DNA of 64,000 nucleotides from Candidatus Nitronauta litoralis (GTDB lineage Bacteria > Nitrospinota > Nitrospinia > Nitrospinales > Nitrospinaceae). Position 1 is the stretch's first letter. The number at the start of each line of letters is the position of its first letter. Location: positions 3,348,001-3,412,000 of the forward strand of contig CP048685.1 of NCBI GenBank assembly GCA_015698285.1, in the 5' to 3' direction. This document shows, piece after piece, positions 6,721 through 12,268 of this stretch. The notes below the pieces were generated by a model. That model saw only the letters and a program-made list of their open reading frames with translations, was not told the origin of the DNA and searched no databases. The position numbers and the translations under genes are program-made.

Positions 6721-7572
6721 TCAATCGAATATAGTATTTTTGATATCTGCTCCTTTTGTATTCGCTTTAGAATGGTTTGAATCTACAAGATAAGCATTTT
6801 TCAGATTGGTTTTAGAGAGGTCAGTTCCGTGCAGGTTGCTTTCCAGTAAAAATGCATTTTCCAAGTTTGCTCCTTCGAGATTAGCGTAAGTCATATCGGC
6901 ACCCTCCAGATTGGTTTCCACCATAATTGCCTCTTTGCAAAAAACATCTTTAAATTCGCATCCAACCAAAACGGCATTTGAAAGATCAGCATTGGTGAGT
7001 GTGCTGGAATTGAAATCTGAATATTTAAGAATCGCACCTTTCAGATCGATATTCTCCATTTTAGAAAAACTGAAATCGGAACCGCGGGCATTGAGTCCGG
7101 TCATTTGACATTTCTCTACTTCAATTGATTTGGCAAAGGCGTACATCATTCGTGCAAAACCAAAGTCGGATTCAATGATTTTTGAATGGTAAAGGTTTGA
7201 ATGATTTAGGTTGCATCCTCGGAATTCACATCCTCTAATAGTCCCTCCGGAAAATACTGAATTCTGAAGGCTGGAATTACGAAAGGTGCAATTCACCAGC
7301 ATGGCATCTTCAAAGTTGGATTCCTGAAGATTGGTATTGGCAAAATTTACATTCTTGAGGCGGGCATTTCGAAAGGTTGATTTTTCAAGATTGGCTTCTG
7401 AAAAATTGATATCGGTCAATTCGGCGTTATCGAAAGTAACTTCATTCAGGACTGCAAAAATAAAGGAAGTTCCGTTCAGGCTGATTCCAGTTAAATCGTA
7501 TTCATGAAGGTTTATCCCATCCTGTGTGGGATTTTTCAACGCTTGATTTAAAACTTCTTCAACCTGTGACAT
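6721..7572 (-). CDS. Pentapeptide repeat protein
   Basis: 283 residues. From about residue 25 to the end it consists of A(D/N)LxX-type pentapeptides, such as ANLEK-STFRN-ARLKN-VNFAN-TNLQE, predicting a right-handed quadrilateral beta-helix. There is a short helical N-terminus and no signal peptide or membrane helix. The middle third (about residues 125-165) is degenerate, as if two beta-helix segments are joined. Its ATG overlaps the motA stop as TAATG, so it is probably translationally coupled to motA and made with the stator. That suggests a role with the motor or its membrane, but no function is known. Some pentapeptide proteins act on DNA gyrase; nothing here points to that. Confidence 0.9.
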   Translation of the reverse strand: MSQVEEVLNQALKNPTQDGINLHEYDLTGISLNGTSFIFAVLNEVTFDNAELTDINFSEANLEKSTFRNARLKNVNFANTNLQESNFEDAMLVNCTFRNSSLQNSVFSGGTIRGCEFRGCNLNHSNLYHSKIIESDFGFARMMYAFAKSIEVEKCQMTGLNARGSDFSFSKMENIDLKGAILKYSDFNSSTLTNADLSNAVLVGCEFKDVFCKEAIMVETNLEGADMTYANLEGANLENAFLLESNLHGTDLSKTNLKNAYLVDSNHSKANTKGADIKNTIFD

Positions 7573-8396
7573 TACTTTTGACTATCCGGGGGCAGCAAAG
7601 CATTCATGCTTCTGCGGATTTTTTGTGGATTGACACGATCATGAATTCCCATTACGCCTACTCGAATCGCTTTTAAAAGTGTTGTTTCATTTTCAGTGCG
7701 GGTATTCAATTTGGCCACAAGTGGAATGATGATAAGGTTGGCCAGCATGATCCCGTAAAATGTCGTGATCAGTGCGGTAGCCAGGCCAGAACCAATCTGG
7801 CTTGGGTCTTCAAGTTGGGACAGCATTTGAATCAACCCGATAAGAGTTCCAGCCATTCCAAACACGGGTGACTGGACCGCCATGAACCTCAGGATTTTCT
7901 GACCACTATTGTGCCTTTCTACGAGGGCCTGCATCTCGCGCTCCATGATTTCCTGGATCTCCCTTGAATTGTAACCATCAACAATCATGGAAACCCCGGA
8001 CCGTAAAAACCGGTTGTTAAGAAATTCCTCTTCGGATTCAAGTCGCTTCATTCCACCAGTGCGGTATTTCGACGAAAGCGCCATAATTACGTCAACATAA
8101 TCCGCCGGTTTGTGAACATCCGGTTTATAGGCATTGATGATAACCGGGATCATTCCCAGAATTTTTTGGGAAGGGAAAGCAATAAATGCCGTGGTTACAG
8201 TTCCCCCAAAGACAATCAAACCAGAGGGGATACTCCAGAACAACCCAACTTCCCCCTGATAAAGGATGGCCCCAAAGATCAAAAGGAATCCGCACAGAGT
8301 TCCCAGAATCGTCCCCATATCCACAACATTCTGTTGTGGAGTGGCATCGATAGCCTGTTGCCTGAGTTCTTCTTGTGTTTTTACGGCAGTTGCCAT
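7572..8396 (-). CDS. motA: MotA-type stator protein
   Basis: Proton- or sodium-channel subunit of a rotary stator (MotA/PomA/ExbB superfamily). At 274 residues it has the MotA length. A cytoplasmic N-terminal tail of about 25 residues precedes the first helix pair (DMGTILGTLCGFLLIFGAIL, then IPSGLIVFGGTVTTAFIAFP). A long cytoplasmic loop with the conserved RSG and EREM segments follows. TM3 (SPVFGMAGTLIGLIQML) and TM4 (GLATALITTFYGIMLANLIIIPLVAKL) carry the typical Pro, Thr and Tyr residues. It lies 34 bases downstream of the cyclase-like gene and overlaps the pentapeptide gene. No other flagellar gene is in the window, so a non-flagellar motor cannot be excluded. Confidence 0.9.
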   Translation of the reverse strand: MATAVKTQEELRQQAIDATPQQNVVDMGTILGTLCGFLLIFGAILYQGEVGLFWSIPSGLIVFGGTVTTAFIAFPSQKILGMIPVIINAYKPDVHKPADYVDVIMALSSKYRTGGMKRLESEEEFLNNRFLRSGVSMIVDGYNSREIQEIMEREMQALVERHNSGQKILRFMAVQSPVFGMAGTLIGLIQMLSQLEDPSQIGSGLATALITTFYGIMLANLIIIPLVAKLNTRTENETTLLKAIRVGVMGIHDRVNPQKIRRSMNALLPPDSQK

Positions 8397-8430
8397 TTAA
8401 CTTTGTTATTCCCGTTCCAGTTGGATCCAG

Positions 8431-10512
8431 TCATGATTTTACCCCGGCAGAGCGATCACGTGTTCTAACTCTTAGAGACTTTAAAATATAACCATTTAGC
8501 CAGGAGAGGCTCATTACATCTCTGCGGCTTCCCGGGATAAAAACCTTAAGAAAATCTTCCTTATCTGCTTCTGTTTCCGTAACTTGCGGGCCAAGCTCTG
8601 CAACAGCCCGGTGCATGCAATTCAGCCCTCCAAAGGTTTTACAGAACAGTTCGCCCCAGGAGGTGAGATAAATCACTGTAACTGCCCGAAGTCGTCCAAC
8701 CCTCAAATTAATAAATTCACTGTATTGTGCGGAAGTCTGGCATTCCTTGATACTCCCCTTCAGGACTTCTGCAGGAAGGGGATTCCCAAAATCGAGAATC
8801 ATATAAAGCTGCTCGACATGAGCATCCATCAGCAATTGTTCATTGGGGATATTGGCTACATCGACTTGAGACAGAAAGTTGGATAATTCCTGGAGAATAC
8901 ACCGCAAATCATATTCCTTGATAGATTGATGGTGCTCAGATCTGAGGAGAAGGTTCGAATCTGGTCGAAACAAATTATTAAAACAAGTGAAGGCTAATAA
9001 AAAGGGGAGGGTGGAGGCTTTCTTGATGATGTTTTCTTTTGGAATTTGCTCAAGAAAGGCTTTTGATTTTCCACGGATAAGATACCATTCGCCTTTTTCC
9101 CTTGGATCTTTCTGGTGAAAAAGAAAAGTGAGTTCTTTTTCGCCCGTTTCCCCATCAATGAGGGCAAACAGACTTTCAACTTTATGATTGGATTTGTTGA
9201 AAAAGCTGAATAACTTTCGACCCAAAAGATGTGTGTCTCGTTCGGTTATGAGGGTTTTGCCTTCGCCCAGTGATTTGTTTTTCTCCGAGATCATTTTGTA
9301 AGAACTCATAAGAATCTTATTGATTCTGTCTCCAAGAGCAACCTTTTGCATCATTTGCCAATCAATGTATTTATTCAAATGATCCAATCTAGACCCCGGC
9401 CAGTCCCATTTTTTAATAAGGTCAATTAAAATTCTTTTTTTCTGATCGCGACTCCTGCGATCCAGGTCTTCCGCTGAAACCTGGGTGCCAACTTTAATAT
9501 AAAAAGCAGTGCGTAGGGCATCCAGTTCATTGAATCCTTTTTCTTCTTTAAAATATGCTTCAGACCTTAAAAACAGTGTCAGATAAGGATCTATGTCTTC
9601 AAAAGATTCCTGGGAAAACACCTTTTTCTTAATATCGTGGCATAAAAGGTTGAACCGGGTTTCCCGGAACATGTACTCCTCTAAAAGCCCCATCTTTATC
9701 AGGGTTTTAAAAGGGGACTTGAAAGACTTGATCAAGGCCCAGATCGAGCCTCCAAAAAACTCTCCCTCAGAAATATCTTCCACATTTCCGATGTCCACAA
9801 ATTCATCCGGGTTGAGCAATGTCTGGTAGTTCCGGATCATTTTACAGGCCTCGTCATATTGCTGATCAGTTGTTTCCAGGGGCATGATCCACCAGAAAGG
9901 TATTTTGCCTGCAATGATAACTAGAGAACGATACATTTCTTCCTTCAACAATTTAGCCAGTGCAGACCCCGTGCTTTCACTATCACTTTCCCCAAAAATA
10001 TTTTGTTTAACCTCCTCAATATCATTTACAAAAAAGTGGATTTCAAGACGGTGGTTTTCCCATACCCATTCTTCAATCAGGCGCAATTTTTTGGAAAAAA
10101 GATCCAGCTGTTCGGACGAGACATTATCTTTGTGGACTAAAAGCGTGTAGTCGAGATCTGATTTTTGAGTATGGGCGATTGAGCCGATACTCCCCATTAA
10201 AAGAACCGTCTCAATAAAGGGATTTAGCTCAATATTTCTCCGGATGACGACATCGGGGAAGAGCTCTTCGGCAGTGAATAGTATCTCTGGGGTCAATACG
10301 TAATTGGATATTCCTTGAGGAATATCTCCAGGAATATAGCCAGGCAACCCCTCCTGATTGGAGTGAAGCAACCTTGGAATCAGGGTGAAAACCCGTCTAT
10401 CCTTGAATGCAAGGATTTCATTTATGCGATCGAGTTTGAAACGATTGTAACGAATAAATAACTGCCGATTGTTAAACAATTCATTTATAAATCTTGATTT
10501 GTCTGCAGTCAT
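8431..10512 (-). CDS. Class I adenylate cyclase homologue (CyaA-like)
   Basis: 693 residues resembling enterobacterial class I adenylate cyclase, recognised from recall. The N-terminal block IPRLLHSNQEGLPGYIPGDI corresponds to the E. coli LPTLLH...PGY segment. The nucleotidyltransferase core MGSIGSIAHTQKSDLDYTLLV (about 106-126) holds the metal-binding pair D119/D121. Further shared blocks are LIEEWVWENHRLEIHFFVND, EEMYRSLVIIAGK, LNPDEFVDIG, EFFGGSIWALIKSFKSPFK, IDPYLTLFLR and ALRTAFYIKV. It is shorter than the 848-residue E. coli enzyme, mainly at the C-terminus where the regulatory region lies. Predicted to make cAMP from ATP. GCGGAACC precedes the ATG. It sits between motB and motA on the same strand, 181 bases after motB. 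The inactive-paralogue alternative is less likely because the DxD pair is intact. Confidence 0.8.
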   Translation of the reverse strand: MTADKSRFINELFNNRQLFIRYNRFKLDRINEILAFKDRRVFTLIPRLLHSNQEGLPGYIPGDIPQGISNYVLTPEILFTAEELFPDVVIRRNIELNPFIETVLLMGSIGSIAHTQKSDLDYTLLVHKDNVSSEQLDLFSKKLRLIEEWVWENHRLEIHFFVNDIEEVKQNIFGESDSESTGSALAKLLKEEMYRSLVIIAGKIPFWWIMPLETTDQQYDEACKMIRNYQTLLNPDEFVDIGNVEDISEGEFFGGSIWALIKSFKSPFKTLIKMGLLEEYMFRETRFNLLCHDIKKKVFSQESFEDIDPYLTLFLRSEAYFKEEKGFNELDALRTAFYIKVGTQVSAEDLDRRSRDQKKRILIDLIKKWDWPGSRLDHLNKYIDWQMMQKVALGDRINKILMSSYKMISEKNKSLGEGKTLITERDTHLLGRKLFSFFNKSNHKVESLFALIDGETGEKELTFLFHQKDPREKGEWYLIRGKSKAFLEQIPKENIIKKASTLPFLLAFTCFNNLFRPDSNLLLRSEHHQSIKEYDLRCILQELSNFLSQVDVANIPNEQLLMDAHVEQLYMILDFGNPLPAEVLKGSIKECQTSAQYSEFINLRVGRLRAVTVIYLTSWGELFCKTFGGLNCMHRAVAELGPQVTETEADKEDFLKVFIPGSRRDVMSLSWLNGYILKSLRVRTRDRSAGVKS

Positions 10513-10693
10513 ATTGGTTCCGCAAAAATTACAATTTAAAAAAACCGGGATTAAGTTCCGACCTCGCGTTGTGAGTATTCAGGCTCTTTTATTTTGCCGC
10601 CGTTTGGGAGTTTTAACGGGGTCTTTTTAAGTATAAGGGAGGATAGAGAAAACCAACAATTTAAAATTTTGAGTCCAAAAAACCGGGTAAAAG

Positions 10694-12268
10694 TTAATTT
10701 TTTCCGGAAGCCTCCATTTCTTTTATTTCGGAGGGAGATTTTCCAAAGGCACTACTCGCTTTCTTTATCCGCTCTGAACCAATTTTAAGCCCCTGTTTAT
10801 TGGACTCTTCTTCAACAACATCTTTATCTTTAACTAAAACTACTTCCACTCTGCGGTTATGAGCTCGGGCATCATCTCCTTTGGAATTGTCCATTTTGGG
10901 GCGAAATTCCCCGAACCCTGTGACAGACATTTTTTCGGGGGGAAGTTTGAGTCTGTCGATCATTACTCTTGCAACACGAGCTGCCCGCGCGGCCGAGAGT
11001 TCCCAATTGGAGGCATAAACTCCACCACCACGAAGCGGCACATCATCAGTGTGCCCTTGAACCATAACTTCCTTAAGACCTTCGAGATACCGGTCACCAA
11101 TCGATTCAATGATTTTTTCTTCAGCACCACTAACAAGGGTTGCCGAGCCTGGGGAAAAGAACTCATCTGACTTCAGAGCGATATGTATGGTTGCCCGGTT
11201 TCCTGGAATAAAAGTTTCGTATCGGGCTTGATGCTTCTCGGATTCTTTTTTTATCCAATTCAACATCTCCCATTCTTTTTGAGTCAGATAAAAGTTTTTT
11301 TTATCGACTCGTATTTTTCTGTCTTGCCAGGAGGATGTAACATCGAACAATTTTTGCGCATCAATACGTGAAACCGACACCATTAGGATGAACACAGCCA
11401 ACAATAATGTGATCATATCTGAATAGGTAATCAAAAATCCTTCCAGACCTGAGGAAAACTCAGCGGTGGCCTGCGCCCGGCTCTCAACCCCCATTCGATG
11501 CTCCATTTTTTCTGAAGCATCTTTTTCTTCATTCAAAGAAACTTTCATTTCTAACTGAGCAATATAATCCTGAAGTTTGTCCAGGTCCGAGACCATTTTT
11601 TTTCGTTCTTCTAGTAGATCGTTAATCTCCATTTTGAGATCCAGTATGATTTCGGAAGGAAGCATACCTTCTTCACCTGGCTCGACACTTCCGTAGAGCA
11701 TCTTTTCATAGTTTTCTATTAGGTCATCTTTTTCCCGCAGCAATCTTTCAATTTCTTTGGTGGGTTTTCCGGACCGTTTATTCAAATCCTCTTTTAATTG
11801 CTCAATCTCATCATTAAGAGTTTCAAACTTTTCCTGGTCTTTACGTAGGCGTTTGAGTTCTTTCAAAAGAAGGGATTTGTCCTTTTGGTTTTTTTCATTA
11901 ACCTGTTTTTCTTCCTGAATACGCTCCTTTAAATGTGCCTCTCGTTCCTTCAATCTTTCAAATTTATCCTGTAGAACCGGGTCTTGATCGACAATCTCCT
12001 GAGTGGGTTCTTCAATTTCCTTTAATGAATCCTTGATCCCGGAATGACGAGCCAACCTGGCCGCCCAGGCTTGCGACTGGGCTTCCCGGATTTGCTCATC
12101 TTTGGCTTCGATCTCCTTGTGCATTTCCTGAATCTTTTTTCGATTCAGGGTCAGAATGGCCTGGATCTTTTCGTTGAGCTGGGATTTTTCCTTTTCCTGC
12201 TTTTTCAGCTCATTCGATTTGATCTTTAGCTGTTCTTTGACAAGCTGTATGTTATCTGAAGTTTCCAT
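10694..12268 (-). CDS. motB: MotB-type stator protein with long N-terminal coiled coil
   Basis: 524 residues. Residues about 5-265 are a Lys/Glu/Gln-rich coiled coil with no membrane segment, broken near residues 85-100 and 165-215. The MotB transmembrane helix follows at 277-300 (GFLITYSDMITLLLAVFILM), where D284 is the expected ion-carrying aspartate. A periplasmic linker leads to an OmpA-like peptidoglycan-binding domain at about 362-480 with FFSPGSATL, VQGHTDDVPL, NWELSAARA and NRRVEVVL. A charged tail closes the protein. Ordinary MotB has about 30-50 residues before the membrane, so the 276-residue cytoplasmic extension is exceptional. First gene of the motB-cyclase-motA-pentapeptide series. 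The start ATG has only a weak, distant Shine-Dalgarno, but the coiled coil reads continuously. Confidence 0.85.
   Translation of the reverse strand: METSDNIQLVKEQLKIKSNELKKQEKEKSQLNEKIQAILTLNRKKIQEMHKEIEAKDEQIREAQSQAWAARLARHSGIKDSLKEIEEPTQEIVDQDPVLQDKFERLKEREAHLKERIQEEKQVNEKNQKDKSLLLKELKRLRKDQEKFETLNDEIEQLKEDLNKRSGKPTKEIERLLREKDDLIENYEKMLYGSVEPGEEGMLPSEIILDLKMEINDLLEERKKMVSDLDKLQDYIAQLEMKVSLNEEKDASEKMEHRMGVESRAQATAEFSSGLEGFLITYSDMITLLLAVFILMVSVSRIDAQKLFDVTSSWQDRKIRVDKKNFYLTQKEWEMLNWIKKESEKHQARYETFIPGNRATIHIALKSDEFFSPGSATLVSGAEEKIIESIGDRYLEGLKEVMVQGHTDDVPLRGGGVYASNWELSAARAARVARVMIDRLKLPPEKMSVTGFGEFRPKMDNSKGDDARAHNRRVEVVLVKDKDVVEEESNKQGLKIGSERIKKASSAFGKSPSEIKEMEASGKN

Follow-up and report, generated by a model that had tools for sequence, protein, structure and literature searches.

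A predicted operon conserved in the order Nitrospinales suggests a link between a nucleotide signal and the swimming motor

Introduction

The known links between cyclic nucleotides and flagellar stators, such as that of cAMP with MotAB in Pseudomonas aeruginosa or those made by PilZ brakes, involve separate loci. In Escherichia coli, cyaA adjoins hemC and cyaY, whereas the class I cyclase gene described here lies among mot genes; and while the canonical stator order is motA-motB, the order here is motB-cya-motA. For P. aeruginosa, a published study reports that cAMP halts flagellar rotation in tethered cells and that the MotAB stator is required for this (PMC6855561). In a literature search from which subscription journals were mostly absent, we found no text combining a class I adenylate cyclase with motA and motB, and none joining “pentapeptide repeat” with “class I adenylate cyclase”.

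The genes considered here belong to a marine nitrite oxidiser, “Candidatus Nitronauta litoralis” EB (PMC8026999), and were singled out in an earlier note on a 64,000-nucleotide stretch of its genome, all of which we refer to as the window. They are relevant to the dominant marine nitrite oxidisers, whose motility control receives little attention in the genome papers we examined.

Results

Within the window, motB, a class I adenylate cyclase homologue (cya), motA and a pentapeptide-repeat gene (penta) follow one another in this order on the minus strand, each identified with Pfam profiles (Table 1). The earlier note had read the same order from the sequence, together with a 181-base gap ahead of cya, a 34-base gap ahead of motA and a TAATG overlap behind it, and all of these were confirmed. 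Its description of the second gene as CyaA-like also held: the two Pfam domains (Adenyl_cycl_N and Adenylate_cycl) score 159 and 225 bits against cut-offs of 27, the catalytic residues are kept, and NCBIfam class I cyclase models score up to 442 bits, which is under their equivalog cut-offs. The protein is 24% identical to E. coli CyaA. The pentapeptide protein scores 147.6 bits against a Pfam cut-off of 20.2. As the motB-cya gap is far longer than the gaps downstream, a separate promoter ahead of cya, inside this gap, is possible; promoter- or terminator-like signals in the motB-cya region were no commoner than in shuffled sequences, and the RNA fold of the gap was no more stable than that of shuffles, giving no structured RNA. 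A 33-nt direct repeat (73% identity) flanks the gap at 10525-10557 and 10663-10695 and may be due to chance.

Table 1. Positions of the operon's features in the window and of the loci compared with it.
Feature	Position	Strand	Evidence
motB, long-form stator subunit, 524 aa, first gene of the operon	10694..12268	-	MotB_plug E=4.6e-12, OmpA E=4e-14 (Pfam)
MotB N-terminal cytoplasmic extension, residues 1 to about 275, predicted coiled coil	11444..12268	-	
Codon for MotB Asp284, counterpart of the ion-channel residue Asp32 in E. coli MotB	11417..11419	-	YSDMIT motif and position
motB-cya gap, 181 nt	10513..10693		
cya, class I adenylate cyclase homologue, 693 aa	8431..10512	-	PF12633 (Adenyl_cycl_N) E=1.8e-46, PF01295 (Adenylate_cycl) E=2e-66
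Codon of Cya Thr123, at the position of E. coli CyaA Trp118	10144..10146	-	SDLDYT vs SDLDIW
cya-motA gap, 34 nt	8397-8430		
motA, MotA-like stator subunit, 274 aa	7572..8396	-	MotA_ExbB E=9.7e-29
motA-penta 1-nt overlap, TAATG	7572	-	
penta, pentapeptide-repeat gene, 283 aa, last gene of the operon	6721..7572	-	Pentapeptide E=5.9e-44
Stator A locus	L095:7929-12822 (G000:C1 about 3119928-3124821)		
Pentapeptide-class I cyclase fusions	L168:7752-11165; L205-L234; L235-L252		

Gammaproteobacteria, with which the earlier note had chiefly associated class I cyclases, are not alone in having them: they are present in 56 of 77 Nitrospinota genomes and in several other phyla. A scan of genome contigs with the cyclase as query returned only three loci, all from Nitrospinota. 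The neighbourhoods of 60 cyclase copies, that of the window included, were then searched with profiles of all four proteins; 51 of these copies belong to the order Nitrospinales (families f1-f4). A search for the gene order in related genomes had been set as a test of the earlier note, and the order proved not to be unique to this genome: it is found whole in 32 of the 51 Nitrospinales loci and in all four families, and therefore is not due to chance. Five loci end at a contig edge and agree with the order in what remains of them, three are rearranged (G031, the second copy of G043, and G059), ten lack both stator genes, and at the G066 locus no motB lies upstream and the sequence stops inside cya. 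MotB is broken into two reading frames in G025 and G027. At L040 and L045 (G031 and G043), motA lies upstream of cya and the cya-penta gap is wider; the genus also has the standard order.

Among relatives, the gaps measure 24-220 nt between motB and cya, 8-35 nt between cya and motA (except at three loci where these genes overlap) and -8 to +8 nt between motA and penta, one locus excepted. The MotB proteins of f1 and f2 are only 43% identical, indicating that the gene order has outlived much sequence divergence. Judged from comparative sequence analysis, the four genes are a conserved operon of the order Nitrospinales, with a cyclase subfamily of its own.

To E. coli numbering, the equivalents of G102, S103, S113, D114, D116, R188 and K260 are invariant in all 56 near-full-length Nitrospinota cyclases, which thus keep the nucleotidyltransferase motif GS...SDxD with R188 and K260; many further CyaA positions are also invariant in these proteins. 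Trp118, reportedly essential in mutagenesis of E. coli CyaA, is replaced by Thr in 48 of 48 Nitrospinales proteins, whereas Trp occupies this position in 8 of 8 proteins from other Nitrospinota and in 30 of 34 from other phyla. Because of this substitution, cAMP production cannot be assumed, and we class the protein as a class I cyclase homologue and not as a proven adenylate cyclase. The remaining four proteins of other phyla carry Ile or Val and are second cyclase paralogues of their genomes. These four (L192, L193, L194 and L195; see also L199, L200 and L202) belong to the phylum of G138, and a gene of about 343 aa, response-regulator-like by eye, adjoins them where the flanks were read.

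The Pfam profile has 601 positions, of which the match reaches only the 416th; the regulatory C-terminal part of the E. coli enzyme is therefore either missing or diverged. Nitrospinales proteins form one group in the cyclase tree (support 0.63), and since its deeper branches are not resolved we make no claim on origin or transfer. A sequence search with the cyclase gave no match among solved structures, and an AlphaFold2 model built with four sequences was unusable (mean pLDDT 36).

A pentapeptide gene lies downstream of cya in all 49 Nitrospinales loci where the sequence extends past the cyclase, including all ten loci without stator genes. The latter represent at least three separate lineages (f1/g2-g3, f4/g15 and G033), and their genomes mostly retain FliG as well as other MotBs, indicating loss of this stator and not of motility overall. 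Persistence of the pair without the stator means that a cyclase role needing this stator is not required. Conserved cyclase positions showed no clear relaxation after stator loss, with 8.6 changes in f1, 2.0 in G033 and 20 in g15, compared to 0.5-10.8 in stator-linked clades, and just three weak candidates (Y122, L185 and S266) shift with it. In three other Nitrospinota families (f6, f7 and f9), the cyclase has neither pentapeptide nor stator neighbours.

Pairing of the two functions also recurs in another bacterial class, reached via G098, where 30 of 30 cyclases examined are single pentapeptide-cyclase polypeptides of about 1,300 aa with the repeats before the cyclase domain, providing independent support for the association. 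This class is probably Desulfovibrionia; dsrAB-like genes are adjacent in G098. No mot gene was observed within about 6 kb of the fusions (18 neighbourhoods) or in 12 cyclase neighbourhoods from other phyla. Taken together, gene content indicates that the cyclase and pentapeptide genes are the older unit of the operon.

The stator between whose genes the earlier note had placed the cyclase is a real MotA/MotB pair, but it is accessory: “Ca. Nitronauta” has three MotB genes, that of the window and those of two more MotA/MotB pairs, which the note omitted along with the MotB extension of about 275 aa. In B-type MotBs, as we term those of the operon, an extension of about 270-300 aa precedes the channel Asp. 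An AlphaFold2 model of MotB (pLDDT 62), used only for its N-terminal helices, places these at residues 2-82, 97-165, 168-192 and 205-275, with pLDDT mostly 70-86 up to residue 240 and lower beyond. The OmpA/peptidoglycan motif NWELSxxRA is conserved. The nearest solved relative of MotA is PomA (8brd, E=3.2e-43). In E. coli, MotA R90 and E98 face FliG; their equivalents here are Arg112 and Glu120, and those of R90, E98, P173 and P222 are kept in 37 of 37 B-type MotAs, whereas A-type MotAs have Ser or Gly at E98. FliG is encoded in 60 of 77 Nitrospinota genomes, “Ca. Nitronauta” included.

Of the other two pairs, one is a canonical stator locus (L094) consisting of a receiver-HD (REC-HD) gene, motA and a motB of about 270 aa. 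The second, stator A (L095), comprises a cNMP-PAS-GGDEF-EAL gene, motA, a long motB (527 aa) and a PilZ gene; motA, long motB and PilZ recur together in 12 of 13 loci, and the cNMP-GGDEF-EAL gene is present in the two of family f1. The three kinds of MotA form separate clades (support 0.988-1.0). The long MotBs of A and the window's stator, B, are 30% identical over a nearly full-length alignment, coil included, which identifies them as paralogues with a common coiled-coil extension. By sequence, stator B looks like a flagellar but accessory third stator, and not the main one of the genome. L111, L112 and L113 (G033 and G031) encode MotB-like proteins of 600-711 aa beside distant MotA homologues, perhaps a fourth stator kind in two Nitrospinales genomes. 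The defence system Zorya was rejected as a candidate, as padloc matches none of MotA, Cya and Penta, and MotB matches ZorB via the general MotB/OmpA domain only.

The “Ca. Nitronauta” genome encodes 15 cNMP-binding domains, which could be cAMP receivers, and six class III cyclase domains, a large network for a nitrite oxidiser. Owing to the latter, any cAMP made by the operon would not be exclusive to it. One of the 15 cNMP-binding domains lies in the protein whose gene is upstream of stator A, and it has a canonical-looking GEMAVIEEKPRSA phosphate-binding cassette.

Discussion

The arrangement of the operon suggests a link between a nucleotide signal and the swimming motor. Our preferred reading, to which we give an even chance, is that it combines an accessory flagellar stator with a nucleotide-signalling unit, both serving one decision. 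Stator B would consist of MotA and a MotB extended by a long coiled coil in the cytoplasm, and the signalling unit of the class I cyclase and its pentapeptide-repeat partner, which we infer to form a soluble complex. The nucleotide product of this complex and stator B would act in the same decision, which might concern contact with a surface, the load or the medium; in the simplest form, the signal would govern whether stator B, or the motor, is used, and the complex may dock on the MotB coiled coil. Stator A with its PilZ gene would correspond to this on the c-di-GMP side, and in family f1 cAMP from B could influence c-di-GMP turnover at A, given the cNMP-binding domain encoded at that locus.

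This reading is supported by a gene order kept in 32 loci of four families despite the divergence of MotB, by the tight downstream gaps, the invariant catalytic residues, the MotA R90 and E98 equivalents (37/37) and the presence of FliG in the genome, as well as by the co-occurrence there of canonical and PilZ-linked long-MotB stators, the 15 cNMP-binding domains and the precedent of cAMP and MotAB in P. aeruginosa. It is weakened by the ten loci that keep cya and penta without the stator and without clear relaxation of cyclase positions, by Thr at the Trp118 position, the possible promoter in the 181-nt gap and the six class III cyclase domains, and by the lack of any fusion or structure showing contact between cyclase and MotB. 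Coupling of a nucleotide signal to the accessory stator is plausible but unproven.

Operons often unite functions merely by timing of expression, and shared expression alone would also explain the gene order. The four genes could thus belong to one lifestyle regulon, with the cyclase signalling cell-wide via CRP-like proteins and without action on the stator, as the retention of cyclase and pentapeptide where stator genes are missing and the 15 cNMP-binding domains would allow; we consider this possible but rather unlikely, since stator genes stand on both sides of the cyclase in four families, beyond what co-regulation needs, and the paralogous long-MotB stator likewise has a second-messenger gene, PilZ. 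Equally doubtful in our estimate is that the Nitrospinales enzyme is no ordinary adenylate cyclase, the change from Trp118 to Thr altering its substrate or product or making it a nucleotide sensor. This overlaps our preferred reading, which leaves the product unspecified, and draws on the reported essentiality of W118, the uniform Thr of Nitrospinales against the Trp of most other cyclases, and the finding that the four other non-Trp (Ile/Val) proteins are second paralogues; the invariance of all remaining catalytic positions argues for a working nucleotidyltransferase.

A more specific version, in which the cyclase is borne by the motor, is improbable: here, the MotB coil would recruit the Cya-pentapeptide complex, and stator engagement or load would set the output of the nucleotide signal. 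That signal would be cAMP or, given the change at Trp118, another product. We also regard as improbable that MotA and MotB form an ion-driven 5:2 motor not meant for the flagellum, for example of Zorya-like or gliding type. The length of MotB, far beyond that of flagellar MotB, the canonical flagellar-type pair elsewhere in the genome and weak ZorB matches to MotB would fit such a motor, but MotA matches flagellar PomA/MotA and retains R90, E98, P173 and P222, and there is neither a ZorA match nor any Zorya partner gene.

If our preferred reading is true, the operon is a genetically fixed tie of a cyclic-nucleotide enzyme to one particular stator. Two wider claims would follow for the proteins themselves: that class I cyclases have conserved partners in pentapeptide-repeat proteins, whose function is mostly obscure, and that a whole order has replaced a residue considered essential in the CyaA of E. 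coli.

Compared to known systems, the Nitronauta cyclase has in common with E. coli CyaA both Pfam domains and the seven catalytic residues listed above, but is shorter (693 vs 848 aa) and has Thr in place of W118. The fusions of G098 type, which are sulfate-reducer-like, join a class I cyclase to pentapeptide repeats as the Nitrospinales operon does; they differ in being one polypeptide and in keeping Trp118 where the motif was read. Stator B shares the MotA family, channel Asp, OmpA peptidoglycan domain and rotor-facing residues of canonical MotA/MotB (PomA/PomB), from which its MotB differs by the additional N-terminal cytoplasmic residues. The stator-associated PilZ proteins MotI, FlgZ and MotL place a second-messenger protein on a stator, comparable to the PilZ gene of stator A, whereas stator B is accompanied by a cyclase and a pentapeptide protein and has no PilZ. 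Finally, in P. aeruginosa cAMP and a second stator jointly affect flagellar rotation, and the accessible part of that study reports no cyclase-stator operon (PMC6855561); in the Nitrospinales, the genes are physically linked.
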